A DNA stretch of 64,000 nucleotides from NCBI GenBank assembly GCA_963924555.1, contig OZ004588.1, forward strand, positions 2,480,001 to 2,544,000, in the 5' to 3' direction. The notes under the pieces were generated by a model that had not been told where the DNA came from, did no database searches, and saw nothing but the letters and a program-made list of their open reading frames with translations. Positions 673 through 53,775 of this stretch are shown here, in pieces. This DNA comes from Crambe crambe. Lineage: Eukaryota; Porifera; Demospongiae; Poecilosclerida; Crambeidae. Within the stretch, counting starts at the first letter, position 1. Each line of letters begins with the position of its first letter. A program made the translations under genes and the position numbers.

Positions 673-738
673 GGCTACTCCTGGATGTAAGACTCACGAC
701 GCATGAATATCATTATCTTGTCTGGCTGTTGCTCACTG
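673..738 (+). repeat. Unique part of left terminal inverted repeat
   Basis: These 66 bp match the reverse complement of 18001-18066 without a mismatch. They include 'ggatgtaagactcacgac' and 'gataatgatattcatgcg' (the latter as read on the right end). The 20-bp array starts directly inside. Confidence 0.85.
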
Positions 739-3660
739 TCTCTCTGAGTTGCTCACTGTCTCTGGCATGTTGCTCACTGTCTCTCTTAGTTGCTCACTGT
801 CTCTCTGAGTTGCTCACTGTCTCTGGCAGTTGCTCACTGTCTCTGGCAGTTGCTCACTGTCTCTCTGAATTGCTCACTGTCTCTGTCTCTCTGAGTTGCT
901 CACTGTCTCTCTGAGTTGCTCACTGTCTCTGGCAGTTGCTCACTGTCTCTGGCAGTTGCTCACTGTCTCTCACTGTGTCTGGCAGTTGCTCACTGTCTCT
1001 CTGAGTTGCTCACTGTCTCTCTGAGTTGCTCACTATCTCTGGCAGTTCCTCACTGTCTCTCTTAGTTCCTCACTGCCTCTCTGAGTTGCTCACTGTCTCT
1101 CTGAGTTGCTCACTGTCTCTCTGAGTTGCTCACTGTCTCTGGCAGTTGCTCACTGTCTCTGGCAGTTGCTCACTGTCTCTCTGAGTTGCTCACTGTCTCT
1201 CTGAGTTGCTCACTGTCTCTCTGAGTTGCTCACTGTCTCTGGCAGTTGCTTACTCTCTCTCGCTGTCTCTGGCAGTTGCTCACTGTCTCTCTGAGTTGCT
1301 CACTGTCTCTCTGAGTTGCTCACTGTCTCTCTGAGTTGCTCACAGTCTCTCTGAGTTGCTCACTGTCTCTGGCACTGTCTCTGGCAGTTGCTCACTGTCT
1401 CTGGCAGTTGCTCACTGTCTCTCTAAGTTGCTCACTGTCTCTGGCAGTTGCTCCTGTCTCTGGCAGTTGCTCACTGTCTCTCTTAGTTGCTCACTGCCTC
1501 TCTGAGTTGCTCACTGTCTCTCTGAGTTGCTCACTGTCTCTGGTAGTTGCTCACTGTCTCTGGTAGTTGCTCACTGTCTCTGGCAGTTGCTCACTGTCTC
1601 TCTGAGTTGCTCACTGTCTCTGGCAGTTGCTCACTGTCTCTCTTAGTTGCTCACTGTCTCTGGCAGTTGCTCACTGTCTCTGGCAGTTGCTCACTGTCTC
1701 TCTGAGTTGCTCACTGTGTCTGGCAGTTGCTCACTGTTTCTCTGAGTTGCTCACTGTCTCTCTGAGTTGCTCACTGTCTCTCTGAGTTGCTCACTGTCTC
1801 TCTGAGTTGCTCACTGTCTCTGGTAGTTGCTCACTGTCTCTGGTAGTTGCTCACTGTCTCTGGTAGTTGCTCACTGTCTCTGGTAGTTGCTCACTGTCTC
1901 TGGCAGTTGCTCACTGTCTCTCTGAGTTGCTCACTGTCTCTGGCAGTTGCTCACTGTCTCTCTTAGTTGCTCAGTCACTGTCTCTGGCAGTTGCTCACTG
2001 TCTCTGGCAGTTGTTCACTGTCTCTCACTGTGTCTGGCAGTTGCTCACTGTCTCTCTGAGTTGCTCACTGTCTCTCTGAGTTGCTCACTATCTCTGGCAG
2101 TTGCTCACTGTCTCTCTTAGTTGCTCACTGTCTCTCTGAGTTGCTCACTGTCTCTGGCAGTTGTTCACTGTCTCTCACTGTGTCTGGCAGTTGCTCACTG
2201 TCTCTCTGAGTTGCTCACTGTCTCTCTGAGTTGCTCACTATCTCTGGCAGTTGCTCACTGTCTCTCTTAGTTGCTCACTGTCTCTCTGAGTTGCTCACTG
2301 TCTCTGGTAGTTGCTCACTGTCTCTGGCAGTTGCTCACTGTCTCTCTGAGTTGCTCACTGTCTCTGGCAGTTGCTCACTGTCTCTCTTAGTTGCTCACTG
2401 TCTCTGGCAGTTGCTCACTGTCTCTGGCAGTTGCTCACTGTCTCTCTGAGTTGCTCACTGTGTCTGGCAGTTGCTCACTGTTTCTCTGAGTTGCTCACTG
2501 TCTCTCTGAGTTGCTCACTATCTCTGGCAGTTGCTCACTGTCTCTCTGAGTTGCTCACTGTCTCTCTGAGTTGCTCACTGTCTCTCTGAGTTGCTCACTG
2601 TCTCTCTTAGTTGCTCACTGTCTCTGGCAGTTGCTCACTGTCTCTGGCAGTTGCTCACTGTCTCTCAGACTCTGAGTTGCTCACTGTCTCTGGCAGTCTC
2701 TCTTAGTTGCTCACTGTCTCTGGCAGTTGCTCACTGTCTCTGGCAGTTGCTCATGCACTGTCTCTGGCAGTTGCTCACTGTCTCTGGCAGTTCTCTCTTA
2801 GTTGCTCACTGTCTCTCTGAGTTGCTCACTGTCTCTCTGAATTGCTCACTGTCTCTCTGAGTTGCTCACTGTCTCTCACTGTCTCTCTGAGTTGCTCACT
2901 GTCTCTGGCAGTTGCTCACTGTCTCTCTGACTTGCTCACTGTCTCTCTGAGTTGCTCACTGTCTCTCTGAGTTGCTCCCTGTCCCTGGCAGTTACTCATG
3001 CACTGTCTTCTGAGTTGCTCACTGTCTCTACCAGTTGCTCACTGTCTCTGCACTGTCTCTGGCACTGTTTCATTGTCTCTGGCAGTTGGTCACTGTCTCC
3101 TGAGTTGCTCACTGTCTCTCTGAGTTGCTCACTGTCTCCGTCAGTTTTGCTCAATGTCTCTCTTAGTTGCTCACTGTCTCTGGCAGTTGCTAACTCTGTC
3201 TGAGTTGCTGGCAGTTGCTAACTGTCTCTGGTTGTGCTCACTGTCTCTTTTAGATGCTCACTGTCTCTCCGAGTTGCTAACCGTCTCTGGCAGTTGCTCA
3301 CTGTCTCTGGCAGTTGCTACTGTAACTGTCTCTCTGAGTTGCTCACTGTCTCTGGCAGTTGCTACTGTAACTGTTTCTCTGAGTAGCTCACTGTCTCTGG
3401 CCGTTGCTAACTGTCTTTCTGAGTTGCTCACTGTCTCTCTACTGTCTCTGGTAGCTAGTTGCTCACTGTAAATACAGTCTTTTATGTACATACTATCTCT
3501 GATAGTTGCTATCTCTCACTATTCCTCTGAGTTGCTCACTATTTCTCACTGTTTCTTGTCTTATCTCTCTTATTTAAGTTGTTCACTGTCTTTGGCAGTT
3601 TCTCTATGTTGCTGAATTTGTTCACTCTCTCTGAATTGCTTACTGTCTTTCTAACATTTA
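722..3660 (+). repeat. Left 20-bp tandem array (subterminal repeat of the transposon)
   Basis: About 140 head-to-tail units of gttgctcactgtctct followed by a 4-base variable part, mainly ctga or ggca and less often ctta or ggta. The outer part (to about 2950) is very uniform; the inner edge (3000-3660) decays by substitutions and short indels into unique sequence. Because 20 is not a multiple of three and the unit has no stop, long Leu/Ser/Val-rich frames run through it; I regard these as non-coding. Likely roles are transposase binding or structure formation (inference). Confidence 0.9.
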
Positions 3661-3809
3661 TTCTTGCATCAATCTGTGTGCATCTCAATTAATATGTACC
3701 TGAAGTGCAAAATTTTTCTGTTGGGAAAGTTAAATGTGTTGATATGAAGCATGTGGTCATGTAGTTCCACATGTGATCCTTATCAACTTCACTTCTGCTT
3801 TCTTTCATT

Positions 3810-6800
3810 ATGGATAGTAGCATTAATGAGCCTAATGATATACCTGGAGATCAAGTAAGTTGATGGTTCATAAATAGCTGTGATGATAGATCTAATTGGA
3901 ACAATAAGCAGAATTTTAAAAAGGAGGGGGGTGGGGTCAAGCATAGCAGCTAATGTAAGTTAGTCCCTTTAAGCTAGTCTTCATGAAAATTGGCATCTGA
4001 CCCACTCTTCCTACTCCGCTGTTTAATTCATGTTTCGTTATAGAGCCATGAACGATTTCATGTCACTTCTAACTCTATTGGAGTGATGAAATTTGGAGAA
4101 TTTCATTCTCGCAGTGATTTCAGTCTTAGGCTGAAATATTTTGTTGAGGCAGGCACAGAAACTGGCTTTGTGGCAGAAATAAATTCAACTCATCTTTCTA
4201 ATAAAACTAAGTAAGTATTTTATATCAACCATGTATCCCGAAAATAGTATAGCTATATACCATGATGTTTTCAAAATTGCACCTTCTGATTGTATGTATT
4301 TTTGTGGGTTGTGTGTTATCTAATTAATGTATGAAGTGCTTGATGTGAGTTTGAGTGAAGTGTGTGATTTTTAGGTAGTGGTCTACTGTACGGCGGATGA
4401 AGGTTTGGAAATCTTGGATGTTTGTAATTGGTATGGCTATTAGGTGTGTCAACAGGGGTGCATTTAGGGGGGCCCTGTACAGGCCCCCTCCCTTGAGTTG
4501 ATCCCCCTTTAAACTTGGAAATTTTAAAAAAATATAAAAATGAACAGCTAATAGTTATGTCAAACTGATACTCTTCTTGACTTTCATACATCCACAATTT
4601 CCTCCATGCACTCTCAGCAGAGAGTACTCAAGTACAATTCTTTAACTCAATACACAAAACTGGCATTTACTTATGAAAATGGTAGGAGAATTAGCCAACA
4701 ATGAGTCCTCCAAAAATAAGTAAAATTTTCTTTTGCACTCTGCGCGGGAGGGGGCACATGCACCCTACAGCCACATGGTCATCTATACCATTTCTATACC
4801 CCTCCCCCCCCCCCCCCCCCCCCCCCCCCAAGCAAAATTTCTGTATAGTTACAGCCCTGGTCAACCATATGGTACTATGTATGGCATACATGCAAGTGTC
4901 CTTCTAGCTTTAATGGCACCAAGTAGCCTACCAGACCACTGTCTTTTAGCCACATTCCACTATTGAAGCGGTAAATATACTGCTACAGCATGATGCACCC
5001 ATCCAGTTACTTTCACCTGTATTGTGTTTCACTGCTTATGAAATATTTAATATCCTACTTACATATACTATTAGCTTTCTATATTAAATGATGTAGGGAT
5101 TGCTATTTCACTACAAATTCTGTCCACAAAAAATCTGACTTCATCGAACAAATCAATCGGAGTTCAGGTGGTGGACTGACATTGTCTCTCAGAGATCACG
5201 AAATAACAGAATTTTATCATTTCTTGAAGAAACGGTTTGATTTTGATGATGCCAAGAATAGAAAGCGTGGTTCATCGCATATCGGTTTACAAGATGACGG
5301 GAAAGTTTGGATCTTGTCATCTAGTCTACACCTTAATGAAGATGGCTTGGTAATCAGCAAAGAAGATTCCAACTATGTCTGGCTACCACATCTTGCACTA
5401 GAAAATGTTGGGACTTCAAATTCGGGAGCCATAAATTCGACATCCTTAATACCAAGAATTCATACACCATTGACAACGAAAAATCTTGGATCATTATTTG
5501 TGTCTATGAAGGGGTGCTTTAAGCATAATTATATTCCATCAGTGATGACTGTAGCTGCTGCTCTACTAGCACTGAACTATGAGACTGTGCTGAAAGCATA
5601 CGAAGGTTGTCCTGTGCCATTTATATATGGACCAAGTCAAACTGGAAAAACCCAGTCATGCAAAACTGCCTTAGCATTATTGGGGATGCTTCAGAGGGGC
5701 TTCTTTAAGAAGACAACATCTCAGAAATGGTTTTTGGAGAGGTGTACATTATCATCAATGCCTTTTGTAATCGATGATCCCCGTGATATTAAAGATAGAA
5801 AGGGAAATCTTACTGTGCCCAGTGATCTGTTGGACTTGGTGAATGATATTTTTGATGGGGGCATTGTGGCAAATTTACGCACAGGAGCTGTAAGACCCAG
5901 AAGCATGTGCATTGTATCTGCAAATGCGCTGCCTACTGCTGATAAGTAAGTTAAATATCTTATGTGCATGGCTACCCTTCTAAATCCAGGAGTAGTGCAG
6001 TAGATTATAAACTTACACATTAGGTAACTCAGTTACTATAGTTCAAGGGAGTGCGCACTTTTTCAGTGGTAAACTAGCCAGCGTTCCCAGATTCTTAGTA
6101 CCTACCGTTTCAATACTTGCTTGGGTTTGGCTTACTACTTAGGTAGCTATGACTGGTTCTCATCTTACATTGCTCATGTACATTGATTGTGCATGTCATT
6201 TAACCAGTTTGTAGTAGTTAATTAGAGTTAGAGACTAATTTCCTTTGCCCATTGGTACTAAGGCAAGAGAGTGGCATCTAGCTCGACCTGGTAGGAGTTT
6301 GGGTAGTGTGTGTATATATGTCTGCCCAGACATCCCATAAGTGGTAATGGTTCACACCATATGAGTGGGGTGGCTGTTGCATGGGCACAATTGGCTGATT
6401 ATCCGGTTGGTTGCTGCTCTGTAGATTTAGTTCTTAGCCTTGAGCTTCATATAGCATAATCATGAATCAGTGGCATAGCTAACCCAGGGCCTGCCAAGGC
6501 ACATGCCCTGGCAATACACGAATCGTTATTATCATACCAGAATGGCTCAAAAATAGGGGAGAAGTGACCCTTTCTCTTAGTACGTATTTATGTACGAGTG
6601 TAGCTACAGACTCATGCTCATGCATGTAGTTAAAATCATTCCTTTGTAATAGGGATATGTCAAGAACAGTTATTATTCCATTTAATTTACCAAAAATTGG
6701 TGTTGAAACTGAACAAGACTGCAAAAATCACCAAGAGCTTGGAAATATCAGGAAAAATCTCTCAAGTTGTATTGGCTGGGCTATCTCACTAAGAAAGCAA

Positions 6801-9800
6801 ATGGAACTCTCAGGAATTTCAATGATCAATAGCAAGTATTTGCCTGCAATATTCGACAAAATAAAAGGTGTAGAACCACGTACGATCACTGGGTACTCCA
6901 TTCTTCTATATTTTGTTGATGAGGTATGTGAACAAGAATAATCTATAGCTATGTTTGATTAAAGCATTTTCTTTTCAAACTTGCAGCTGATTAAGAAAGC
7001 TAAAAGTGAAGATTCCACCATAACTTTAGATCTGAATGATGTAATAGAGTACATTGGAGATACTATCCCTCCTCTATTCCAATCTTCTATTCCATCTCAA
7101 AGCATAGGTACAACAAATAAAGAAATTTCTGAGTTCCCATTGGCTGTCAGGAATATGTTTGAAAAGATATTGCTATGGATGACTGGAAAGAGAAAATTTG
7201 AGGTTTGTAAACATAGATGTATGTATACTTGATATCACAATATCACATAAAATGTAGATACTTCGCTGTCTACGGATTGATGGGATCAAGTTCAAAAACG
7301 AAGCTTGCATTGGTATTAGATTATCGTTAATGACACTTGATATCGATCAACAGCTTGTCATCAATCAAGTGACTTCCGCGAAGATTGGTGCCAATAATGT
7401 CAACAAAGACTTTTTATCAAATTCTTCAGAAGATAATTTCGTAAAGAGAGGAGTGAATTCCACCAGTCAGCGATGTTTGGTGATATGGACAGCATTTATT
7501 CCTCAACAAATTCTAGCTGACATTTATAGAGGTATGACTGTGAAATCAATGTGGGGTTTCTCTTTATTAGGAGCCAAGGGTTAATTTTAATCTGGCAAGA
7601 ATTAATGAAGCTCTTGTTAGTTTTTCAGTGAGCACTTAAAGGCTTTTTGACTACTTAACTGGCTACATGGCTTGATGTGTGCTGATCAATATAATAGTTT
7701 TAGATCCCGTTGCTATGTGGTTGCTATGTGGATTAAATCAGCAAGTGTGCACTATTTCTGTAGGAGTGCACTAATTCTGTAGGAGTGCACTAATTTTTTG
7801 CATCCCCAGGCTATGATTGTTTATGCTGAATGCTGTAAGACAGCTTGACCAAGCTGTTGAAGTTCTGCCTTTTATGCTGGCTACTATACTCTCTGAAAAG
7901 CTTGTTGGGTTTGAAACGTTATGAATATCATGTCATTATAAACGTGCAACGTGGTCAATGAATAATATTAAAATTCCACGTTTCAAACCCAACAAGCTTT
8001 TCTGAGAGTAGCTAGTATAACATTCTAGCTGGTCTACAGCAAGCTGGTGTTTCGCACGCCGCCTTCTTTGATCTTCAGACTGGGCAGGCACAAAATACTT
8101 GTATCCTTCGTGCTTGGGAGTATCCCGATTTATACTATAACAGGAGCATCAGCAGGTACGTGGACTATTCTTGCTGCCATTTCACAACTCAAGAAAGAAG
8201 TGGAGACAACAATTAGCTAGCTAATAGCAAACCAAACAGTACTGATGTTTGTAACTATGGACTACAGTAGCTACGCGCATGCACAATGGGATCTAAAATA
8301 GATAAAGCATGCACACTCGGTTCGCACATGCTTTATCTATTACATAGAGTGTAGTAAGCATAGCCTCGTCCCCAGGCCCTCCTTTTTAATTATGATTGTG
8401 GAGGGCCTGGTACGCGAAAATATCGCAAAACCATAGAAACCCCATAGCGTGGGTGTGTCCAAGGAAACGCATTCCCATTGCAAACGTCACCATGACAAAT
8501 CGGTGCTACGACCACGCACTAGCACATGGCCCAGCCAGGCCTTAGAAAGAAGAGGCGTTGAGCCATTGAGCTGCCACTGAATTCGAGCTTTGCTAGCCTA
8601 GCAGCAGATAGTATCGGAGCTGCCTATCATCTAGTTATCGAGTAGTCTAGATTTTAGGCTCAGCTGGATTATAAATAGATCGGCCTCAGAATTCTTCAAG
8701 AGTTTTAGTAAGTCCTTGGTTGTATAGCCATAGCGAATTAGTCTTTTTGTTGTAGCGAAGCAGCAGAAGTTCTTCTGAACACCTGGTGCCTTTAGGTCGA
8801 TCCTATCCTGTGTAGTTGCTCCAGTTCGTAGCCCAAATGCGTGGGCATGGTCATAATGCTCTCGTGCACTGCCCATGCCCAATTAAGACGGTTCTACCCC
8901 AGTTCTATGACTTCAATTTTTGTTCTGTATTAAGGCCATTATTTATAGAATCCTAGTTTCCTGTCCAAGAAGACATCCACAAGTGCTGAGGTCAGGAAGT
9001 TATTATAATTATTCTATTATTGCTTCGTCGTTCGTCTCAAAGGTCCTGTCTTCGTCATTCACCATGGGCTTTCCCAAAAAGAGCTGTATGTGAAGCCAAA
9101 TGTGCGTGCTCTACTGTGCGCATGAGCAATGGCAGTAATAATATTTTTTGATGCGGTGACATTTTCAATACACGGGTAGTGGACAGGAAGCAATCATTCT
9201 ATTAATAGTGGCCTAACATATGTCATAATCACTGCACCATATCTGAAGCTACCATAATAGCTTACAGCTTGAGTATGATGTATATGTATGCTGGCTCCCA
9301 GAACACGCATGCATAGTATTTTACATTATTCACTATGCAGGCAATATCGAGCGTTAATTAAGCACATGTGCATGCAATTGATAACAGGCCGGCCCTTTCG
9401 CTTTTCCTCTACCCCATAAAAAATGGGCCTGGGTACGAGGCTAAATCAAGATTCAAATCCTGGCACCCTGTTCAGATTAAATCTTGGGATACTATGACCC
9501 ATTTTAGAGCCATCAAAAAAAAATTGCTGGTTTATAGCACTTATAGCAGGTGACACTGACACCTGCTATAAGCGCTAACAATGACCTTAATTACTTTATA
9601 ATTAAGAGATGGGGTAGTGTTCTGGTAGGTTACATAAGTAATTATCATGAATTACAGTTTCTGGTGAGCTGGAAGATGATGGAGGTGGTAATGAAGCTAC
9701 AGATGAAGGTGACAAAGATAGCAATCCAGCAGTTGGTGGTGAGGGTCTGGGTGGAGATGGCAATCCAGCAGATGTTACTGGAGGTATGGATGTAGTTGGG

Positions 9801-10442
9801 GTTGGTGGTGAGAGCAAATCTGGTGATAATTCAGCAGAATCTAACAGGTAATTTTCTTGTTTTTTGTGTTTCATTTTTTTTTGAGCTAGCTGTGTGCATG
9901 CGTAGCACAAATCTGTTTTGCTTTGGTAATGATAAGCTGTTTATCCATGGCTAATTAAGCAGGTTCTTAAATAATATCGTGAATAAGACTTTCTGCTAGC
10001 AACTAAAAGTATACATGATTGTAGCTAGACAATTATTATCCGATGCACAGTCCAAATGAAGTAGAGTTAGATCCATGCATGGGTTATTCCACAATATGGG
10101 GGCTGTATGATTTATATTGCTATAGAGCCTAAGTGTGAGAGCAGTATCTACCATACTGTCCAAGGTGCTGTGGTTATAATAAAATTATACAGGTCTGATA
10201 TTGGTATTGCCTCTGTCCTGACCACTTCACCCAACATAGTGATCTTAAACCACAAGTATAGGCATTACATAAATGATTTTTCTTTTTTTAAATACCAACC
10301 ATACAAGCAAATACATAGCTAATTATGATGAAAACATTTGCATTTGATTTTATGCAGCTCAAAACGAGGGAAACCTAAGAGAAAATCCGCTAATATTATC
10401 AGAGATTCAAAAAGGCAGAGGGTTGCCCCAGACAGACAGTGA
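3810..10442 (+). CDS. Transposon-borne P-loop ATPase, eight exons
   Basis: My exon model joins 3810-3854, 4044-4210, 5097-5945, 6653-6923, 6987-7202, 7258-7531, 9658-9847 and 10358-10442. Every junction has GT/AG and keeps frame, giving about 698 aa. Walker A is GPSQTGKT at residues 249-256, Walker B is MPFVIDDP with Asp297-Asp298, and a sensor-like VSAN has Asn347. This looks like a DUF927/D5-type helicase ATPase, a family known mostly from phages and plasmids; the assignment comes from the motifs only. Exon 7 is acidic and Gly-rich; exon 8 ends with a basic KRGKPKRKS tract resembling a nuclear localisation signal. If the seventh donor were skipped, the protein would stop at 7584 (about 624 aa). 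The gene converges on the transposase and probably serves transposition, in an unknown role. Exon 1 (MDSSINEPNDIPGDQ) is the least certain part. Confidence 0.72.
4700..4862. repeat. Dispersed repeat fragment with a C tract, in intron 2 of the ATPase gene
   Basis: The stretch with 'gagggggcacatgcaccc', 'catctataccat' and a run of about 27 C at 4803-4829 resembles 31855-31985 (gagggggcacacacccc, cacctataccac, then C-rich DNA). It probably belongs to an old short element. The Pro-rich frames across the C tract are artefacts. Confidence 0.5.
7880..8022. mobile_element. MITE-like hairpin, about 140 bp
   Basis: An arm containing 'gaaaagcttgttgggtttg' at 7893-7915 is matched by its complement at 7980-8008 across a loop of roughly 65 bp. 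Both arms extend to 'tactctct' and 'agagagta'-like ends. The element lies in intron 7 of the ATPase gene. No coding content. Confidence 0.6.
8024..8156 (+). other. Possible extra exon inside ATPase intron 7
   Basis: After an acceptor-like 'aacattctag', an open stretch reads AGLQQAGVSHAAFFDLQT and continues through ILRAWEYPDLYYNRSIS to a donor-like 'cag/gtacgtgg'. The entry phase fits exon 6 of the ATPase gene (phase 1), but the exit phase (2) does not fit the exon at 9658, so a further exon would be needed. It could be an alternative exon, a decayed exon or chance. I do not recognise the sequence. Confidence 0.3.
8361..9443. mobile_element. Nonautonomous element with MULE-like ends
   Basis: The left end TAGCCTCGTCCCCAGGCCC is nearly the complement of the right end GGGCCTGGGTACGAGGCTA. 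The same ends occur in the intact element at 44971-45661. The left half (8361-8790) is shared with 51567-51990, including 'gattgtggagggcctggtac' and 'ggattataaatagatcggcc'. I see no target duplication here. An open frame of 83 codons on the minus strand at 8631-8882 lies in the repeat and is not supported as a gene. Confidence 0.6.
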
Positions 10443-10559
10443 TATCAATACAAAGTATGTCTCAATCACATATGAGTTTGAACTTATGCTATTATATTGT
10501 CTTCATTATTATTTGATTACTTCATTATTAAAATTAATAATAACCACAATAGCCAAAAT

Positions 10560-13472
10560 TCAATAAATGAGTTTAAACTGATGAATTTCTTTTAAAAAGT
10601 GATCTATCTTAGACACGAATTGATTTTTACTCTTCTTTCTCAATACTGACTTGCTTGGTAATATAACAGAAGATTGTTGTAACTGTGCATAATCTACTAA
10701 CTGATTATAAAATGATAAACAAACTTGTTTGGTTGAAGTGTCTGCTTCATTGCATTCAAGATGGTCAATAACATGAACAAAAATAATAGACTCTAGCATT
10801 GACCAGCCACCATCTGCTAATGCTTGTCTTCTATCAATACTTGAAGATAAATCTAACTTCTGCCAGTCATGACATTGCCTTTTTCGCTTACCAAGTGATA
10901 TCCGCACTCCATAGGGATTTTGACACCCTTTACAACCACATGTACTTGAACAAGATTGCTTTGCTGAAAGGCACTTGCACTTGGAATGCTTCTCTTCACT
11001 GTTCTTACAAGATGAATAACCATGATCTTTAATATTAACACCACACCTACATTTTATTTCACGATGGTCCAATGATAAACTAATATCCAATGGTTCTTTG
11101 AAAATAACACTGTCATAATGTCCAGGACCACAGTCAGTGTATGCAATAAAAATGACATTAGTCGATGGTTCATGTGGTGTGACATAAGTAATAGGCATAC
11201 CTTCTGTCGATCGAAAAATAACAATGCAACAATTCAATGCATTTGCTATTGCTAAAGGCATTGCATCACCAAGGCTACTTGCAAAGTGGCCATCATTTAA
11301 GAATTTTTCAGCTTCTGACTCATAACTTTCTTCACCTAGCACATTATATTGCTCTTTGTTTGATCCTAGCAATTCGTTAACTAACATACATCTTAGCTTA
11401 TGTATATAGTCATGAACAGAGTGGTTCAAATCTTGAAAGCCCAAAGTGTTTTCAATAATATTTTTGTGACTATGAATTAGGTTAAGCATAACTGAAGTAA
11501 AGAAACAGTTTCCATCAGCAATCACTGGTTCCAAAATAAAATTCCATGATTGAAGTACTGCCCGAAGTCTTGATTCATGTCTTTCTCTGTCACTAGATGT
11601 GTTTACAGAGATTCCATGCAAATTTTTCAAAGATTGCATGTAAGGTAAATACATGAATGGAATGTTGGCACTTTTTGTTTGCTTTTGAATTGCGTCAGCA
11701 AGCAAGTACTGTGAAATTGAAATATAAAGTATCCTTTGAATGGATTCAAGATTAGCAGGTTCTTCCAATTCTTCATCTTCATGAAGTTTATGATCATCAG
11801 GAAGAATACCCATAACTTCTGTTGTTGCTAATGGTGTTACCATTGATCTTAAATCCATGGGTGGACTTTTATCTCTGTTATTGAAGCGGTATATTAGTAA
11901 CATCAGTAAAGCATATGCATATAGAGTACCAATTCTACTCTTATGAAAAAATGTGTTGATGTGCCTATGGAAGGCTTCATTGCAATTTGTCCCCCCACCA
12001 ACTTCTATTTCAGTAAGGCAGCCCTTCTCAGCATGATTCTTCAGTTTCTCTATTTCATGTATTGCTTCTACATTCAAAATGTATTGTTCATTGTCGTCTT
12101 TTAAAGATCTCCACTTTAGCAAGAAGTTGTTCAAGTTAAGTAATAATTCATCAATCTTTGGTGTCTCCTTCACTCTATCACTACCTTGGTCATCTTGTCT
12201 TCTAAAAATTAACTTTAGGTCAAGCATGCATTGAGAATACAGTACATGCTTTTTGGACAATTTTTTGGCGACACGCTGAATTGCATGAAAGATATCTAAT
12301 TTTATCCGAATGTCATCACCAAAAATGCTGCATAGTGCTCCCTTCCATTGGCAACAATTGTCTATGTAAATTGTTTCTATTTTATTCCCCTGGTTTGCTG
12401 CTCTCTGGTTTACTGCTCTTAAAAGATTTTCAACCTGTTTGAATGAAGTTCCTCTTGTAAATTGCCATGACACTATCTTATTTTGTGAGTTCATGATAAA
12501 AAAAACACTGTCATATTGAGTAACCCACTTGTTGTCATTGCGGAGATGACCAATATTAGCTGCTACCTTAAAGGTGTGATCAAAACTCAATGAATTTCCA
12601 GTGTTAATAGCTTGCAAGCTATGTATATAGAAGCTTTCATCTTCTAGAAACTTAGCTAAGAAACAATTTTTGATTGAATCATCAGTGGGAAGTAAACCCA
12701 TTCTTGTGTGTTTAAAGTCAAAAAATTCTTTGTATTCTTGCTCTATGGTATTTGACTTCCTATAGTGTTCTACTAAACTTTCATACATGCATTTTCTTCT
12801 GAAATAGTTTTTCAACCTAATATCTTTAATAGCTGCTTCAATTGAATAGAAATTCATGCCTCTGTGACAAAATGACATGATTAAATCAATCATATCTTGA
12901 GAAAAGCCAGATCGGTGCAGCATAATGAAAGGGATCATAGTTTTAGGTAACATTTTCAATATTCTGGGATCATTTGCTAGAGTCTTATGCCTGTCTTCAC
13001 ACATATACACTGCACTAACCAACAAGATAACATCTTTCACATCATGAATCACACGAGGCTGCCGATATTGCATACTTCCATCATTCCAATACTTTGTAGT
13101 TGCAAGTTTGCAACAGCTACTATGGGGACATTTGATACTTCCTCCAGGGAACAAATGCTTGAATGTCATTATGGGATTCCACAACAATAGCGTAGGAAGC
13201 AAACAATTCTCTGGATCAGGTGATGAGCTCAAGGCATTAGAGTGCATAAAATACACAATATCAGATGGGTACTGACCTAAAAATTATATGGAGCAGTAAG
13301 ATTATATGGCCCACCATTCCAGCTATTTTCTATTCTTATTCTTATATATACCTTCACTAATGATGAATTTTTTAATGAGATCTCTGATGAATTCCACATG
13401 AGTCCTTGAAAGTGGAACGGCTCCATTACAATAAAAGATAGCACTCAGAAGTAATAGACATTTAGCATCCAT
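10560..13472 (-). CDS. DDE transposase with OTU-like and CXC domains, two exons
   Basis: Exon 1 (13472-13352) starts at an ATG and encodes MDAKCLLLLSAIFYC; a 75-bp GT-AG intron joins it in frame to exon 2 (13276-10560), giving about 945 aa. An N-terminal CPHSSC...MCEDRH pattern may bind zinc. The core shows FDHTF (Asp273), YIDNCCQW (Asp346), a KLDIFH motif of the (C/D)xxH type, and GGTNCNEAFHRH (Glu474), the layout expected of an RNase H-fold transposase of the MULE/hAT/Kolobok-like cluster. After it comes ADGNCFF (Asp628, Cys631) with GPGHYDS (His760), which fits an OTU-type cysteine protease triad. A Cys-rich stretch from KCKC at 806 to GCKGCQNPYG near 833 resembles a tesmin/TSO1 CXC domain. 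The long exon is uninterrupted. Superfamily is uncertain: MULE-related or KDZ-like are both possible. Confidence 0.8.
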
Positions 13473-13802
13473 GATAGGCTACTATAATATGAATCTATAA
13501 TGTAGCATAGATCATATACTTTAATAGAAGCATCTAGATATCTAGGTGTTAAATTTTTTCCCATGTGAATTTTTTAAAACACATAAACGGTTTCACCACG
13601 TTATAATATGAATGGATCAGGGACCTTATTTTACAGACCACTGTGAATGCACATAACTTACTAATTGCTGGACAATCTGATTCAACAGAAGAACACACAC
13701 TAGCTACTGCATGTATGTGTATCTCATTATGAATTCCATGTCTGCCAGACTCACTGTACAGTGATAAGACAGTGTAGAGACTCACTCATGCAGAAAAATT
13801 AG
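13473..13802. other. Spacer between transposase start and right array
   Basis: This 330-bp AT-rich stretch should contain the transposase promoter. I see no convincing TATA box or other motif. The array begins to be recognisable from about 13803. Confidence 0.4.
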
Positions 13803-16800
13803 CAACTCATGAACAAGTGCCAGAGATATTGAGCTACTCAGAGAGATAGTGAGAGACAGTGAGCAACTGCCAGAGACAGTGAGTTACTCAGAGAGACAGA
13901 GAGTAACTCACAGAGACAGTGAGCAACTCAGAGAGACAACGAGTAACTCAGAGAGACAGTGAGCAACTAAAAGAGGCAGTGAGCAATTGCCAGACAGTGA
14001 GTGACTCAGAGAGACAGTGAGCAACTGCCAGAGACAGTAGAAACTGCCAGAGACAGTGAGCAACTCAGAGAGACAGTGAGCAACTCAGAGAGATAGTGAG
14101 CAACTGCCAGAGACAGTGAGCAACTCAGAGAGACAGTGAGCAACTCAGTGAGACAGTGAGCAACTCAGAGAGACAGTGAGCAACTGCCAGAGACAGTGAG
14201 CAACTGCCAGAGACAGTGAGCAACTGCCAGAGACAGTGAGCAACTCAGAGAGACAGTGAGCAACTCAGAGAGACAGTGAGCAACTCAGAGAGACAGTGAG
14301 CAACTCAGAGAGACAGTGAGCAACTCAGAGAGACAGTGAGCAACTCAGAGAGACAGTGAGCAACTGCCAGAGACAATGAGCAACTGCCAGAGACAATGAG
14401 CAACTCAGAGAGACAGTGAGAGACGGTGAGCAACTGCCAGAGACAGTGAGCAACTGCCAGAGACAGTGAGCAATTTCCAGAGACAGTGAGTGAGCAACTG
14501 CCAGAGACAATGAGCAACTCAGAGAGACAGTGAGCAACTGCCAGCGACAGTGAGAGACAGTAAGCAACTGCCAGAGACAGTGAGCAACTGCCAGATACAG
14601 TGAGCAACTCAGAGAGACAGTGGGCAACTGCCAAAGACAGTGAGCAACTCAGAGAGAAGTGAGCAACTCAGAGAGACAGTGAGCAACTGCCAGAGACAGT
14701 GAGCAACTAACAGAGACAGTGAGCAACTTTCAGAGACAGTGAGCAACTGCCAGAGACAGTGAGCAACTCAGAGAGACAGTAAGCAACTGCCAGAGACAGT
14801 GAGCAACTCAGAGAGACAGTAAGCAACTGCCAGAGACAGTGAGCAACTACCAGAGACAGTGAGCAATTCAGAGAGACAGTGAGCAACTGCCAGAGACAGT
14901 GAGCAACTTCCAGAGACAGTAAGCAACTTAGAGAGACAGTGAGCAACTGCCAGAGACAGGAGCAACTGCCAGAGACAGTGAGCAACCTAGAGAGACAGTG
15001 AGCAACTGCCAGAGACAGTGAGCAACTCAGAGAGACAGTGAGCAACTCAGAGAGACAATGCAACTCAGAGAGACAGTGAGCAACTGCCAGAGACAGCGAG
15101 AGAGAGTAAGCAACTGCCAGAGACAGTGAGCAACTGCCAGAGACAGCGAGAGAGAGTAAGCAACTGCCAGAGACAGGAGCAACTGCCAGAGACAGTGAGC
15201 AACTTAGAGAGACAGTGAGCAACTGCCAGAGACAGTGAGCAACTCAGAGAGACATGCAGTGAGCAACTAAGAGAGACAGTGAGCAACTGCCAGAGACAGT
15301 GAGCAACTGCCAGAGACAGCGAGAGAGAGTAAGCAACTGCCAGAGACAGTGAGCAACTGCCAGAGACAGCGAGAGAGAGTAAGCAACTGCCAGAGACAGG
15401 AGCAACTGCCAGAGACAGTGAGCAACTTAGAGAGACAGTGAGCAACTGCCAGAGACAGTGAGCAACTCAGAGAGACATGCAGTGAGCAACTAAGAGAGAC
15501 AGTGAGCAACTGCCAGAGACAGTGAGCAACTGCCAGAGACAATGAGCAACTCAGAGAGACTGTGAGCAACTCAGAGACAGGAGCAACTGCCAGAGACAGT
15601 GAGCAACTTAGAGAGACAGTGAGCAACTGCCAGAGACAGTGAGCAACTCAGAGAGACAGTGAGCAACTCAGAGAGACAGTGAGCAACTAAGAGAGACAGT
15701 GAGCAACTGCCAGAGATAGTGAGCAACTCAGAGAGACAGTGAGCAACTCAGAGAGACAGTGCAACTCAGAGAGACAGTGAGCAACTCAGAGAGACAGTGA
15801 GCAACTGCCAGAGACAGTGAGCAACTAACAGAGACAGTGAGCAACTTCCAGAGACAGTGAGCAACTGCCAGAGACAGTGAGCAACTCAGAGAGACAGTGA
15901 GCAACTGCCAGAGACAGTGAGCAACTAACAGAGACAGTGAGCAACTTCCAGAGACAGTGAGCAACTCAGAGAGACAGTGAGCAACTCAGAGAGACAGTGA
16001 GCAACTGCCAGAGACAGTGAGCAACTAACAGAGACAGTGAGCAACTTCCAGAGACAGTGAGCAACTAACAGAGACAGTGAGCAACTTCCAGAGACAGTGA
16101 GCAACTGCCAGAGACAGTGAGCAACTCAGAGAGACAGTGAGCAACTGCCAGAGACAGTGAGCAACTGCCAGAGACAGTGAGCAACTGCCAGAGACAGTGA
16201 GCAACTAACAGAGACAGTGAGCAACTTCCAGAGACAGTGAGCAACTGCCAGAGACAGTGAGCAACTCAGAGAGACAGTGAGCAACTGCCAGAGACAGTGA
16301 GCAACTCAGAGAGACAGTGAGCAACTGCCAGAGACAGTGAGCAACTGCCAGAGACAATGAGCAACTCAGAGAGACTGTGAGCAACTCAGAGACAGGAGCA
16401 ACTGCCAGAGACAGTGAGCAACTTAGAGAGACAGTGAGCAACTGCCAGAGACAGTGAGCAACTCAGAGAGACAGTGAGCAACTCAGAGAGACAGTGAGCA
16501 ACTGCCAGAGATAGTGAGCAACTCAGAGAGACAGTGAGCAACTCAGAGAGACAGTGCAACTCAGAGAGACAGTGAGCAACTCAGAGAGACAGTGAGCAAC
16601 TGCCAGAGACAGTGAGCAACTAACAGAGACAGTGAGCAACTTCCAGAGACAGTGAGCAACTGCCAGAGACAGTGAGCAACTCAGAGAGACAGTGAGCAAC
16701 TGCCAGAGACAGTGAGCAACTAACAGAGACAGTGAGCAACTTCCAGAGACAGTGAGCAACTCAGAGAGACAGTGAGCAACTCAGAGAGACAGTGAGCAAC

Positions 16801-18016
16801 TGCCAGAGACAGTGAGCAACTAACAGAGACAGTGAGCAACTTCCAGAGACAGTGAGCAACTAACAGAGACAGTGAGCAACTTCCAGAGACAGTGAGCAAC
16901 TGCCAGAGACAGTGAGCAACTCAGAGAGACAGTGAGCAACTGCCAGAGACAGTGAGCAACTGCCAGAGACAGTGAGCAACTGCCAGAGACAGTGAGCAAC
17001 TAACAGAGACAGTGAGCAACTTCCAGAGACAGTGAGCAACTGCCAGAGACAGTGAGCAACTCAGAGAGACAGTGAGCAACTGCCAGAGACAGTGAGCAAC
17101 TCAGAGAGACAGTGAGCAACTCAGAGAGACAGTAAGCAACTTCCAGAGACAGTGAGTAACTGCCAGAGACAGTGAGCAACTCAGAGAGACAGTGAGCAAC
17201 TCAGAGAGACAGTGAGCAACTGCCAGAGATAGTGAGCAACTCAGAGAGACAGTAAGCAACTGCCAGAGACAGTGAGCAACTACCAGAGACAGTGACCAAT
17301 TCAGAGAGACAGTGAGCAACTGCCAGAGACAGTAAGCAACTGCCAGAGACAGTAAGCAACTTCCAGAGACAGTAAGCAACTGCCAGAGACAGTGAGCAAC
17401 TGCCAGAGACAGTGCCAGAGACAGTGAGCAACTCAGAGAGACTGTGAGCAACTCAGAGAGACAGTGAGCAACTCAGAGAGACAGTGAGCAACTCAGAGAG
17501 ACAGTGAGCAACTGCCAGAGACAGTGAGCAACTGCCAGAGACAGTGAGCAACTAAGAGAGACAGTGAGCAACTGCCAGAGATAGTGAGCAACTCAGAGAA
17601 ACAGTGAGCAACTCAGAGAGACAGTGAGCAACTGCCAGAGACAGTGAGCAACTAAGAGAGACAGTGAGCAACTGCCAGAGACAGTGAGCAACTCAGAGAG
17701 ACAGAGACAGTGAGCAATTCAGTGAGCAACTGCCAGAGACAGTGAGCAACTGCCAGAGACAGTGAGCAACTGCCAGAGACAGTGAGCAACTGCCAGAGAC
17801 AGTGAGCAACTGCCAGAGACAGTGAGCAACTCAGAGAGACAGTGAGCAATTCAGAGAGACAGTGAGCAACTGCCAGAGACAGTGAGCAACTGCCAGAGAC
17901 AGTGAGCAACTGCCAGAGACAGTGAGCAACTCAGAGAGACAGTGAGCAACTAAGAGAGACAGTGAGCAACATGCCAGAGACAGTGAGCAACTCAGAGAGA
18001 CAGTGAGCAACAGCCA
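13803..18016 (-). repeat. Right 20-bp tandem array (inverted copy of the left array)
   Basis: About 205 units of agagacagtgagcaact with variable tetrads, the reverse complement of the left array. The inner edge (13803-14050) is degenerate and the outer part uniform, as on the left. Higher-order duplication is visible: the block at 15728-15964 recurs at 16523-16759 in the same order of unit types, so roughly 795 bp was duplicated. Another repeat has cagcgagagagagtaagc at 15095, 15145, 15320 and 15370. Long frames on the minus strand are artefacts of a stop-free unit. Confidence 0.9.
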
Positions 18017-18066
18017 GACAAGATAATGATATTCATGCGTCGTGAGTCTTACATCCAGGAGTAGCC
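18001..18066 (-). repeat. Unique part of right terminal inverted repeat
   Basis: Exact reverse complement of 673-738. Host DNA is assumed to begin at 18067. Confidence 0.85.
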
Positions 18067-19457: not shown

Positions 19458-19922
19458 TCATGAACCATTGCTTTTTTTTGTTCTGGTGTGTAGGGGCTTC
19501 AACCTCAAAATAGCTAATTGAAGACCATACATCACACACACACACACACACACAAAACAACAATAAACAAACAGCTAATATTCTTAAAGAAAATACTGTA
19601 ACAGTGCAAAATGGAACTCTATTACACATGCTTAAGAAAGTTATAACAGAATAATTCTAATACTCACCAGGACCAGGGTTAGTTTCAACATCACCAGCCA
19701 ATATCAATAACAAGGAAGTCACCACTTTATGATCAGAATAGTGAACAGTATGAAGAACTCTTCTTCTTCGATAACACTTCCAGTTGTCTCTAAGAGGTAA
19801 AATCACCATGGAAACATTTCCCCTTGTGATAGTGCAGCCATTTCGATGATTAGTACACATGGTACATGAGCAGTGTGGGCCATTACGAAAGCGAGTCTTG
19901 GTCGTCCCTTCAGATTCAGTCA
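19371..19922 (-). CDS. Exons of a gene carrying a 2A ribosome-skipping motif (partial)
   Basis: The exon 19922-19668 lies between an acceptor (gcttgcag) and a donor (CTG/GTGAGT). It is 255 bp, phase 1 at both sides, and encodes about 85 residues: a Cys-containing part (GPHCSCTMCTN, RRRRVLHTVHYSD) and then LLLILAGDVETNPGPG. The consensus 2A motif D(V/I)ExNPGP is complete, so the ribosome is expected to skip the final Gly-Pro bond. A possible 30-bp micro-exon follows at 19400-19371 (IDADDTTIL), also phase 1-1, beyond a GA microsatellite. Upstream and downstream exons are not identified. 2A motifs are known in animal non-LTR retrotransposons and in some invertebrate NLR proteins; the splice signals favour a host gene, but a captured retrotransposon piece remains possible. 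Confidence 0.55.
19403..19453. repeat. GA microsatellite
   Basis: About 25 uninterrupted AG dinucleotides. A CA run follows at 19533-19553. Confidence 0.95.
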
Positions 19923-20139
19923 CTGCAAGCTTCCACCACAATATAGTCAGCAAGAAGTTCAAATAAAGCTCGTATCTCAGGATTTCCCCTACACACACAA
20001 CAGAAATAACGATTATTGTATGCAAAAAAATGTTGACGTAAATGCACAGTACTTTGCAAGTTGGTTGTGCACACATGAACTCTGCCAACCTGATAAGACA
20101 CTGTGGGGAGATAACCTTCAACCATCCTGGTGTGCTAGA

Positions 20140-21375
20140 TACCGTATGGGTAGATATTTTCGAGAAATTAAAATTTCGTGATTATCAGTACCAAGCTAGA
20201 TTATAAAAATTTCGTTTCGCTCCGCATACGTTGCAATATATCGCTCGCACGTAGTGTAACAAGTTAGTCTTTAAAAAGACTAGGAATGCCTCGGCACGTA
20301 CTTAAGTGCAACCTTTAACTTTCTAAATTTTATTTTAAATGCTTTACAGTGAATACGACAGTGATAAGAGACGATAAAGATACACTTAAAGCCAGAGTCC
20401 TATAAGGATGATTATATTTGGAATTGCTGAACACTTGCTGCATGATGAAAAGCGCAGGGGTTTGCGAGGTCAAATGTTGCCAAAATATTTCTCTCAGCTT
20501 CTTTTTAATTCTGGCAGTGGAGAGTTCCAAATAATGCACACTGAGCAACATGGTTTATTGTAGTAAGATTAGTATTTACACAGCTAGTATTCTTGCTGTT
20601 CAACGTTTTCGAACTGCCGTTTTGAATGGTTATAGCTTGATTGAAGTATGTGTACTGGATTCTCACATTGTTTGGAAGCCTCAAAGTCTTAGTTCTAAGA
20701 TTCTCCTTCACCATGGCTCTCTCTTTGGCACTTCAAAAGATCACTAGTTCGTGTACACTGCAATCTCTGTTGTTTTTGTTCACTGCTGTCTTTTAGTCAG
20801 TTCTCTGCATGTGATAATGGGCTTGATTTGTTGGCAAAGACAGCCAAGAAGCATCAGCACTTTCTTCACAGTGTAGAATTACCATGTAGTGACTGTGAGC
20901 CCCGGCCTAGCTGTTTGTCCTTAGTACTGTATGCCTAGCTAGCTAGCTATACTGTACTAGCTAGAGCTAAATTAATGCACGTGCTCGATACGCATCATGC
21001 ATCGTGCATCATCGCATGTGCACGTGAAACGTACCATCGCCCATAGTCGCTTCCAGCCGGCACTTTAGTGCCGAGGCAAAAAATTGTACATGTGGTTATT
21101 GGAAGGATGACCAGTTTTAGTTACCCTTCAATGGTTAGGGAATTTCACGTCTACAGGAAGCTTCAGATGGTGAAGTTCTGCTGTTCTGAAAGCGAAGTGA
21201 AGTTCTGAAATACTTGTAGAGAGCCATCTGGAAAGATCGAGGTCAAAGTACTCCGTAATGACTAATGCGCATGCGCTAAAAGTAATAGGCTACTATACTA
21301 TTGATTTTTTCGAGTGTTAAAAATTCAAAGTGACCGAGAAACCATGATCCCTCGAAAATATTTATCCATACGGTA
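20140..21375. mobile_element. TACCGTA-ended element, 1.24 kb
   Basis: The left end 'taccgtatgggtagatattt' is the complement of the right end 'aaatatttatccatacggta' with two mismatches, extending to cgag at the inner side. The ends start with TA, as in Tc1/mariner-like MITEs. It contains another repeat (20261-21084), so it is a composite. The same type of end is seen at 55916-56431. Confidence 0.65.
20261..21084. repeat. Dispersed 0.8-kb repeat, copy 1
   Basis: It shares with 21571-22280 the start 'aaaaagactaggaatgcctc', the middle (ttacacagctagtattcttg) and the end 'tgccgaggcaaaaaa'. The ends contain an inverted repeat, tgcctcggcac against gtgccgaggca, so this is probably a nonautonomous transposon. 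Open frames on the minus strand are short and differ between copies. Confidence 0.7.
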
Positions 21376-42380: not shown

Positions 42381-44924
42381 TCAAATGTACTTGCTTTCAA
42401 TCTTAGAGGCTACTTGAGGAAAGTCCACAGCAGGAGACCTCAGGGCTTTAACCAGTGCCTTCCACGAGGGACAAGGTGTTGCCACCTCAAGCCATTTAGA
42501 AAGAATCTCTCGAAAACAGTCCTCCACTTGTTTACAGTGAGTAGTGTTGATCGAGTCAAGAGTTGCTGTGTCCAAGTCGAGTTCCACTCCAATGTCATAC
42601 CACTTGCACCTGGCATCCCACAAAGCAGTACGAACAGTCTTCAAGTCCAATGGAGCTGCATGCGCATGCAAAACAATCAAATTCAAGGAAGATAGAATTA
42701 ATGTAGCTATGTATGTATGTATGTATGTATGTATATATGAATGTATGTATATGTGTTTATGTATGTATGGACATACCATTTGTAGAGGAATAATGTTCTT
42801 GTTCACACCATAGTGATTGTCTAGAAGTAAGCACTCCAAACACATTGCAGTCTCGACTGCAGGTCCAAACTCTGTCTCTAAAAGTGGCAATATGAGGGTC
42901 ACTAACATCACACGGACAAAGAAGTGCTTTTGAAGGGATGGAGTTGTTGTAGCCAAGAACAACAGTTGCTTTCTTCAGGCCCGCAAAAATGGCTTGAGAG
43001 ACAAAGGAACACATCTTGCAGCACACTTCTTCAGCGGTATGCATATGGATTTCAAAATGTGTAAATGTGTCAATCAGAGTGACAGAGCCAGGAAAGCCTG
43101 GCACCTTGAATTTGATGCAGTTTCGATTCAGGCAAGCTGGAGTGTTGGAATGAGGAAGCAACACTATTTTCCAAGGACAAGGAAACTGGTTGTCATTGGA
43201 GACAAGAAAGCAAGTGAGACTGCAGTAAGTACCAAGACGAGGACCTCCAAGTGGGAAGTCCAGAGCAAGAGGAGCTACAAGTGAATCTTTGGAGACACGA
43301 TACTCATGAACCTTCTCAGTTTCAAGAACAGGAAGGAGGGCAGGCATGATGTACTCTGAAGCACTAAAGTCAGCTATGATGAGCAACTTTCTAAAGAGCT
43401 TGACCAGATCAACAGGAGTAAAGATATCAGGCACATAATGCTTATTAAACTCTTTCTCTTGCAGAAGCTCTAAGCTAACAATGCCATGATCTTTAAACTT
43501 CTGCCAGCCTCCAGAAAGTGCACCAAGTGTTTTACAACCAACATTTTCCCTCAAACAATAGGTAATCTCCACCAACTCAGTTACCTTATCCAAGAGGACT
43601 TGAGGGTTAGTGAATACAACACCATCCAGAACCTCGGGAAAATAAAAAACCGATGAAATTTCATCTAGGAACTGGAGAGCTGCATCCAGTGTATGCTCAT
43701 CAAAGAAAAGCTTATCTGCTGCTCGAAGGCATTCTTCTTTGCTCAATACCCCTCTATCTAAAGAAAGGCTGACTTCTTCAAGGATAATTTCCAAAGAGAA
43801 ATACTGAAGGGGCACATCAATGGGATCAGGCATACACTTTGTTAGGACTACACTTTGGATATCTTTAGCTGTATCCCTATCGAGCTCTTCAGGATTTTTG
43901 GCATTGACTGGAAAGATTAACTTATTTTCTGCCAGTTTGTAGTAGATGACTTCCTCTCGGAACATCGGAAGCAACAGCTTTTCTAACTTCTTATTCTTCT
44001 GCTCTCGTGTTTCGGTCGTGCACAGGTGTTCTTCGTCCCTGTGGGTCCCTACGATCATGATTTTGGAGCACTCACCTTTAGTATCGGGAGATGATCTGTG
44101 GGTGTGCAAAGTGCGAAGGCAGTGCTTCAATAGCTGCTCGTTGGACTGAGCTGATCGGTAAGGTGTCCCCACACGCTTCCCATCCTCCCCAAAATACTCT
44201 ACCATGGGCTTGGTGGCGAGTTCTTCTGACAGCTTGAAGACGAATATGTAGAGGGACATGCGACGAAGAAATACAGGTAACACCTCATGAAATTGTGGTT
44301 GTCCACCAGAGTCGATCAATTTGACCTTCCGGAAGACAGGTAAGGCTTCATTTGATTTGGAGATCTCGTCCAATAGTTCCATTAGTTCCTCATGTGTGCT
44401 AATGGATGGCAGTGAAATCTTTTCCTTTGATTGAGAACCTTTCTTTGGTTTTCTAGCAAGTGTTGGACTGGAATGAGTTGCTGGGTGTACTTGTGGATGT
44501 ATGTCACGTGTCGACTTATCTTCTTTACTATGAGCTTCTTTGTGCTCAAGAGTCGTATCAGAACTTAAATTTTCGCCAGATTCAGAATCCTCACCAGATC
44601 CCTCATCAGAGACAGAATCCTCGCCAGAATCTTTGTCATTGGCATGAAGCTGAGCATATATGGCCCTCGCTAGAATTTTTTTCTGTTCTTTTGAGGAAAG
44701 CTTTTTCCACTCCTTCTTGGTTACACCCATATGTATCATTGTAATTGGACGAGCAGCTAGAGGAGTGCTTATTCTGGCTTGCCTTGGAGGGTTACCAACG
44801 AAAAGGTCGATTGAACTCGATTTTCCGGTTCCTGGAGCCCCATAAAGGAGGGCTTTGTTGATCTGGGACTTTACATGTCCCTGCTTCATTGCCTTGTTAT
44901 ACAGTCGACGTGACTCAGCGGAAC
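42381..44924 (-). CDS. Roc-like GTPase with C-terminal Death domain (two 3' exons)
   Basis: Exon 44924-42777 (716 codons, phase 1-1) begins after acceptor 'ctacctgtag' with SAESRRLYNKAMKQG. It holds a P-loop LLYGAPGTGKSSS, a switch-I-like ISTPLAARPI, switch II DSGGQPQFHEVLP near 44300, and a G4-like VGTHRDEE near 44045. A COR-like region follows. An acidic Ser/Glu-rich insert lies between switch I and II. A 121-bp intron with a TATG microsatellite leads to exon 42655-42381 (90 aa plus stop), a Death domain with ARCKWYDIGVELDL and PCPSWKALVKAL. Similar Roc/COR-like plus Death proteins are expanded in sponges, cnidarians and bivalves and are thought to act in innate immunity or cell death. The exon start requires upstream exons; see the Death-fold exons at 53, 57 and 62 kb. 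Confidence 0.85.
42713..42756. repeat. TATG microsatellite in the last intron
   Basis: Repeated tatg units with minor interruptions, between the GTPase and Death-domain exons. Confidence 0.9.
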
Positions 44925-44970
44925 CTACAGGTAGTCAATGAAAAAACCGGATGAATGTTATTATGCATGT

Positions 44971-50560: not shown

Positions 50561-50889
50561 ATTAATGCAAATCATATCTATGTGATATGTGAAGGTAACT
50601 TTGCTTAAAGGTAGTAGTCACACTATCCAGCCGATCAGGTAGAACATATAAAAAGTTATTCGGTTTACACAGAAAAAGTGCCCTTCTTGGCTTCCATATT
50701 AAGTGACTCTGTTCTGATTCTTATAGCAAATTCTGCTGTAGTGCTAATAAATTATAATTATTGTGCTGAAGTTCCATTATCGTATAGTGCGAAATTTTGT
50801 GGGGCATGGAATTCATGTAATTAGTGCAGAAAACTTTTTTTCACTAATTCTACCTCACTAAAATTTGGGCCTGGTTGATGCCACTAATC

Positions 50890-52860: not shown

Positions 52861-53247
52861 TAAGTAGCTATATCAGCAAGACTGCATCTCTTCATAAGGA
52901 CTACCATTTTCTACTACAAATGGTTTCTTTCCTAAGAACAGAGTGGCTTAAATACCAGCAGAAAATACACTGAATTAATAATATTTCTGGCAAAAGAGTA
53001 TTGCATTTTATATGTAACTTCCTGCGATGACTAATACACGATATTCATATCATCTACCCAATTAATTAAAACAAACAAAAATAACAACAATCACAACAAC
53101 AACAACAACAATAACAACAACAATCGATTATGAGAGAAGAAATTTAATTAATAACAGTGGCATATAGGATGATGTTTTTTACATAGTTGGGGACAGGACA
53201 CATGCAAATCAACCATTCCAGTAATCATCACAGAGAACCAGACTCAC

Positions 53248-53511: not shown

Positions 53512-53773
53512 CTGTGGGAGAGAACATAGAGAATAAAACATGAGCTGAGAAACTAGTCCATTCAACAAGTAACAGGAACAAATGGAAATAGTATGAGCAT
53601 GTATTACTTCAGTCAACTATAGTTTATGCTCTAAAGACAATATGAGGTGTATGCATGCAATTAGTGTTAATATCAAGAGATGAATGACAGGTACTTTATA
53701 TAGTGGGAATTGCTTTGACATAAAAGACTTATGTTGCACATTTCATTAATGATAATAATGAAATAATGCCTTC

Positions 53774-53775
<2 letters not shown>

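Follow-up and report, generated by a model that had tools for sequence, protein, structure and literature searches.

We report the analysis of a 64,000-nucleotide stretch of the genome of the sponge Crambe crambe (assembly GCA_963924555.1, contig OZ004588.1, positions 2,480,001 to 2,544,000), referred to as the window, in which positions 673-18066 are occupied by a DNA transposon carrying two genes between mirrored ends. Each end is made of a short unique tip followed inward by a long array of 20-mers; one gene encodes a transposase with OTU and CXC features, the other, on the opposite strand, a spliced P-loop ATPase. An initial annotation had proposed this arrangement, which is supported by the present searches and is repeated in other elements of the genome. 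The searched genome amounts to 143 Mb in 119 contigs, the window corresponding to C11:2480001-2544000. The explanation we consider likely is that of a DNA transposon moving by cut-and-paste, a member of a divergent DDE lineage bearing a C/DxxH signature, provided with ends resembling those of Foldback and Rehavkus elements and with an ATP-driven helper, the window copy being either recombinant or misjoined.

Ends and genes of the window unit

The left tip starts at position 673 and its mirror copy ends at 18066, the two ends being identical over 192 bp from the tips. A unique terminal repeat of 66 bp had been annotated outside the arrays: mirrored tips and arrays are indeed found, while the unique part measures about 55 bp on each side.

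673..727 (+): left terminal tip, unique part of the inverted repeat, beginning GGCTACTCC; part of the 192-bp identity with the right end; flank paralogues diverge at 672/673
728..3440 (+): left array, about 134 copies of GTTGCTCACTGTCTCTCTGA-type 20-mers; Tandem Repeats Finder (TRF) score 2762; exact pattern confined to the window unit
13852..18018 (-): right array, about 212 copies of 20 bp, inverted relative to the left array; TRF score 5114
18012..18066 (-): right terminal tip; part of the 192-bp identity; right-flank paralogue diverges at 18066/18067

By eye, degenerate copies of the 20-mer continue past the left array to about position 3640, and on the right side a shorter TRF row starts at 13822. 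Within the counted region (673-64000, both strands), 673-3700 contains 96 copies of the word TTGCTCACTGTCTCT and 13501-18066 contains 152 inverted ones; none lies in 3701-13500 or in 18067-64000. An exact pattern of two array units has 61 matches in the genome, all at C11:2480728-2498011, inside the window unit, and its reversed control has none; the pattern represents one unit variant only, and diverged arrays elsewhere could escape its detection. The possibility that the array is a general satellite, which the initial annotation had named as a potential refutation, was looked for and rejected, because all exact matches are confined to the window unit. Other copies with the same ends, which the annotation had suggested to search for, were not found: a 64-bp tip has two genome matches (E<=0.001), the two ends of the window unit. 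Neither the tip nor three array units are predicted to fold into a hairpin better than shuffled sequences, 198 and 176 of 200 shuffles folding equally well or better.

The transposase is encoded by a single open reading frame (ORF), for which residues are numbered on the 906-aa translation of 10560-13280.

10560..13283 (-): transposase ORF, 907 codons from stop to stop; ORF list, Pfam and alignment

Its DDE core is formed by D234, D307, D329xxH332 and E435, in the order D, D, C/DxxH, E, and the D, D, DxxH and E positions are kept in related transposases wherever these are covered. This order is not specific to Mutator-like elements, because the C/DxxH signature is common to hAT, P, Kolobok and Dada, according to the available text of PMC10045372. 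An OTU domain follows, with DGNC from residue 589 and GHYD from 720, and then a CXC cysteine cluster at 741-791. In the profile comparison suggested initially for the two proteins, OTU (PF02338) was found above the Pfam cut-off (E=3.4e-6), MSL2-CXC below it (E=3.2e-4), and neither the MULE profile nor any profile for the whole ATPase was matched; a PHD finger was not matched in Pfam scans of this and the related transposases. The best reading of the protein, as judged from its residues, is that of a putative divergent DDE transposase bearing the C/DxxH signature.

The ATPase gene (3810-10442, + strand) is predicted to consist of eight exons forming one 698-aa frame, separated by seven introns with GT/AG ends.

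3810..3854 (+): exon 1; splice signals and open frame only
4044..4210 (+): exon 2; splice signals and open frame only
5097..5945 (+): exon 3, N-terminal part, with Walker A GPSQTGKT, Walker B FVIDDP and IVSAN; homology to other elements and splice model
6653..6923 (+): exon 4, starting with the SRTVIIPF stretch; splice model and homology
6987..7202 (+): exon 5; splice signals and open frame only
7258..7531 (+): exon 6; splice model and homology
9658..9847 (+): exon 7, acidic Gly-rich tail; splice signals and open frame only
10358..10442 (+): exon 8, basic tail and stop; splice signals and open frame only

Exons 3, 4 and 6 find support in homology to a sister element, el3, described below. The SF3/D5 set of motifs comprises Walker A, a Walker B of the hhhDD/DE type, a motif C of the hhhxxN type, and then an Arg; the Walker A, Walker B, IVSAN and SRTVIIPF stretches, read by eye from the alignment, form an SF3-like set. 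The protein had been annotated as DUF927/D5-like, and profile comparison lends this weak support: the whole 698-aa sequence has no Pfam match at E<=1, and DUF927 (PF06048) is matched at that level by two of eight pieces of the ATPase family, with a best E of 0.0015; in Pfam scans its scores are 14.9 and 18.3 bits against a curated cut-off of 22.6, and the SF3/D5 part is a reading of motifs by eye. At E<=1e-3 the genome yields no match to the DUF927 model. SF3-type profiles are weak, each found in one piece of eight (PPV_E1_C, 0.056; RNA_helicase, 0.033); AAA+ profiles are not significant (AAA_22, best E=0.042; AAA, best 0.0036, below cut-off). No significant match was found to profiles of TnsC/IstB/MuB-type ATPases or to solved structures.

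Sister elements and the pairing of the two genes

At least 52 genome matches to the transposase were obtained, which collapse into 26 loci, that of the window among them; five further copies, belonging to three families, could be delimited. The first, el2 (C11:2464086-2473151), lies 7.5 kb upstream of the window unit and has inverted arrays of a 27-bp unit; its transposase is 34% identical to that of the window unit and its ATPase 23% over the best exon. The second family includes el3 (C11:5109496-5122876), with transposase, ATPase and inverted arrays of a different 20-bp unit, and a copy at C20:4281959-4291830, with inverted arrays like those of el3 and a perfect 8-bp target duplication, CCCCAATC; ATPase pieces of this family are 31-43% identical to that of the window. 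In the el3 region (C11:5108001-5131000) a 1015-aa ORF, reverse transcriptase-like by eye, lies between two parts of the left array.

The third, family 4, has copies on C1, C3, C17 and C6, which are 98.5-99.9% identical over the compared parts: their movement is therefore recent. The copies on C1 and C3, the two delimited ones, are flanked by perfect 8-bp duplications, CACTCTGT and GGGGTCCC, respectively, and their arrays are made of unlike units at the two ends, of about 44 and 53 bp. The second gene of this family encodes a different P-loop protein, one exon piece of which matches DUF3987 (PF13148) at E=1.4e-14 (54.5 bits, cut-off 27), while another exon piece scores 20.3 bits, below cut-off. 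Homology between the two kinds of ATPase could not be demonstrated (hhalign probability, 2%). The OTU domain is above cut-off in family 4 (E=1.1e-7), below it in el2 (0.0028), and not matched at E<=1 in the Pfam scan of the el3 transposase.

Perfect 8-bp duplications are thus found in three of the five delimited sister copies. In el2 the duplication is 7/8 by eye, though it was not reported by the script used, which recognizes identical stretches of 5-8 bases, or longer ones of at least 9 with a single mismatch, and reported none for el2 or the window unit; in el3 six bases match, or eight if two bases were lost. The 8-bp duplications fall within the 8-11 bp range of Mutator-like elements; hAT and P elements also make duplications of 8 bp. 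A GTCTCT/CTGTCT word recurs, by eye and in no constant orientation, in the arrays of several families. Relatives of the transposase were not found by scanning viral contigs with a profile of its alignment, nor by a tblastn search of plasmids.

Pairing of the two genes was evaluated using exon 3 as ATPase query and a limit of 10 kb, intact loci and fragments being pooled. Nine of the 26 transposase loci have a homologous ATPase match within this distance and three others a DUF3987 match, against uniform-placement expectations of about 0.08 and 0.04 pairs; shuffling the ATPase loci along their own contigs (a size of 7 Mb being assumed where that of the contig was lacking) yielded 0.2 pairs on average and 4 at most in 5000 trials. 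At 20 kb, 10 loci are paired with the ATPase and 5 with DUF3987. A search with the el2 ATPase exon recovers the window gene, el3 and other loci of the same set. The two genes are kept together though their order, deduced from positions and strands, varies between families: the genes converge in the window unit and in family 4, diverge in el2, el3, the C20 copy and C3:2437012, and lie on the same strand in two loci on C10, in C8:3771073 and in C3:2589776.

Some DUF3987 matches lie farther away. Those at C3:3148012 and C3:3988100 are 10-20 kb from the transposase matches C3:3166146 and C3:3969355, and may be remnants of further two-gene elements; those at C5:2271636-2334877, C13:1199815 and C15:4184523 are more than 20 kb from any transposase match of this lineage, and are perhaps partners of other elements.

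In the cut-and-paste transposon that we favor, the transposase would bind the repeated array units many times over, through its zinc-binding parts, pair the two ends, cut at the GG tips and insert with an 8-bp stagger. The P-loop ATPase would be an ATP-driven helper that remodels the DNA or the transposase-DNA complex, acting at end pairing, strand transfer or gap repair, either as a matchmaker like IstB, TnsC and MuB or as a helicase; the OTU domain may remove ubiquitin or process proteins.

A doubtful alternative is that the ATPase is a replicative helicase, and that the element, instead of moving by simple cut-and-paste, is copied, either once excised or in the form of a hairpin (fold-back) intermediate. 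The motifs are SF3-like by eye, the long inverted arms could fold back, and the weak matches in phages, among them two tblastn records at E=0.9 for the ATPase exon of the window unit and one at E=8e-3 for a DUF3987 piece, are annotated or described as DNA primase/helicase, primase and toprim, beside others such as clamp loader. Against it, the motif reading does not amount to a profile match, no polymerase or primase is found among the ORFs of the window unit or in Pfam scans, and exact 8-bp duplications fit ordinary strand transfer.

Origin of the window copy and weight of the evidence

The initial annotation had indicated the termini and target duplications for checking: both boundaries of the window copy are defined to the base, and no 8-bp duplication is present. 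Paralogues of the left flank at C11:3223265 and C11:3623544 are uninterrupted and element-free, and diverge from the window exactly at 672/673; a paralogue of the right flank, C11:3752080, likewise uninterrupted and element-free, diverges exactly at 18066/18067. The two flanks derive from different target sequences and this, together with the missing duplication, makes the window copy look recombinant or misassembled: in our reading two insertions recombined to give it, though it is possible that two were joined in the assembly. The left flank, at 520-672, is one of a family of repeats matched 25 times, on C11 (21 matches) and C15 (4).

The same junctions might suggest that the whole unit owes its shape to chance or misassembly, two mirrored satellite arrays having come to enclose unrelated genes, since a target duplication is missing and the flanks match different targets. 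This appears highly improbable: the tips are identical over 192 bp, the exact array pattern occurs nowhere else in the genome, and el2, el3 and the C20 copy have the same anatomy.

Several observations weigh against the preferred reading, that of a cut-and-paste transposon assisted by its own ATPase. In this reading the role of the ATPase in transposition is a putative one. The window copy has AATACCTC on its left and AACGAAAT on its right, where a duplication would be expected. The transposase does not fit established profiles: MULE (PF10551) is not matched by four transposases of the lineage in Pfam scans at E<=1, and none of its 54 genome matches falls, in the table inspected, at transposase loci of this lineage; no significant match was found in PDB (the MSL2 CXC domain is at E=0.28), and a single-sequence fold, with a mean pLDDT of 35, was not used. 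The pairing is incomplete, as 14 of the 26 transposase loci have neither kind of ATPase within 10 kb, 14 of the 23 ATPase loci have no transposase match within that distance, and in family 4 the copy on C6 lacks a DUF3987 match. Moreover, the 12 paired loci are not independent, because el3 and C20, the two C10 loci, with near-identical ATPase pieces, and the three loci of family 4 are copies: about eight families lie behind them. Arrays, finally, are only modestly enriched (TRF score at least 150, unit at least 8 bp), being found at 12 of 16 related loci, out of 25 outside the window, and in 8 of 23 control pieces (p=0.015). As to the two genes occurring without arrays, the other potential refutation named by the initial annotation, C10:239111 and C10:433898 are candidate cases: both genes match there, and no array was seen within 1.5 kb of flank. 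Since the DNA per locus was unequal and the controls were not random, some being copies of one repeat, the delimited elements are better evidence than the enrichment of arrays.

The ATPase loci lying more than 10 kb from a detected transposase would also fit a passenger gene, which an ancestral element would have picked up and retained by chance or for some other use, such as replication or escape from host defence, with no role in cutting or joining; most Mutator-like groups are given one ORF in the table of a review, as far as its available text goes (PMC6446971). We consider this unlikely, as the ATPases of the window unit, el2 and el3 have stayed paired with the transposase at 23-43% identity and in several gene orders, and one family has a different P-loop ATPase, of the DUF3987 type, as second gene.

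Other features of the window lie outside the element. An ORF at 19657-20181 (+) contains near its end GDVETNPGP, which we take to be a 2A-like ribosome-skipping motif, and is perhaps the start of a non-LTR retrotransposon. A 725-aa ORF at 42757-44934 (-) has a P-loop, GAPGTGKSSS, near its start and is presumably Roc/COR-like, as judged by eye. A 28-bp minisatellite at 54899-55915 (37 copies, 95% matches, several frames open) has no inverted partner within 50001-60000, and a small fold-back-like unit is found at 58924-60026, where 31-52 bp repeats of the GGGTCA type form two inverted clusters about 0.95 kb apart.

Known systems and wider meaning

The long inverted ends, formed by a tip and internal tandem repeats, give the window unit, el2, el3 and the C20 copy the end pattern of the Foldback structural class; family 4, with arrays of unlike units at its two ends, differs from this pattern. 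In the available sections of its description, the long inverted ends of the Foldback element Tetris of Drosophila virilis combine a flanking tip with internal tandem repeats; its duplications measure 8-10 bp, and extra repeats are discussed as further transposase binding sites, as in Galileo (PMC4079207). Tetris is described there as non-coding, its units measuring about 220 bp, whereas the present elements carry two genes and units of 20-53 bp (PMC4079207). Rehavkus, a Mutator-like group, is likewise a DDE transposon with a minisatellite, which is located near one end, and is credited, in the review text available, with 9-bp duplications, a PHD finger and one ORF (PMC6446971). The elements described here differ from that account in their 8-bp duplications, OTU and CXC domains, two genes and arrays at both ends, and in not matching the MULE profile (PMC6446971). 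The OTU domain is shared with Ginger1, whose transposase has a Gypsy-type integrase and makes 4-bp duplications, and with some Helitron proteins; the accessible part of the Ginger1 description mentions neither array ends nor an ATPase (PMC2836005).

The transposases of IS21, Tn7 and Mu are all of the DDE class. A transposase acting with an element-encoded ATPase is described for IS21 (IstA/IstB), Tn7 (TnsB/TnsC) and Mu (MuA/MuB) in the available text of PMC11208146; these systems are bacterial, and the ATPase found here has no significant AAA+ profile match. Among eukaryotic DNA transposons, the AcademH lineage encodes a helicase: the likeness, drawn by description only from the portion available (PMC10045372), would lie in a helicase encoded by the element, its duplications being of 9-10 bp rather than 8.

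The initial annotation had stated that no described element has this combination. As a claim about a kind of element this is too strong, since Foldback ends, the Rehavkus minisatellite, OTU domains in Ginger1 and Helitrons and the Academ helicase are all on record. A literature search found no description of this combination among the papers listed; Repbase was outside its scope and subscription papers were mostly uncovered, so that this is no proof of novelty. A wider interpretation, possible but tentative, is that these elements represent an undescribed eukaryotic cut-and-paste lineage that would depend on an ATPase, as Tn7, Mu and IS21 do, would have swapped SF3-like and DUF3987 partners, and would have ends, made of binding-site arrays, that change with the transposase between families.

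The bacterial elements Tn7, Mu and IS21 each have a dedicated ATPase partner as their control hub, a kind of partner that is unusual in eukaryotic cut-and-paste elements. If a eukaryotic DDE lineage does use one, target choice and ATP-driven activation of a transposase would become open to study, and perhaps to use, in complex cells. The genome of C. crambe offers a natural series of homologous transposases with different end arrays and two kinds of ATPase, in which co-evolution of proteins and ends is testable, and the finding bears on the old question of what mobilizes Foldback elements.

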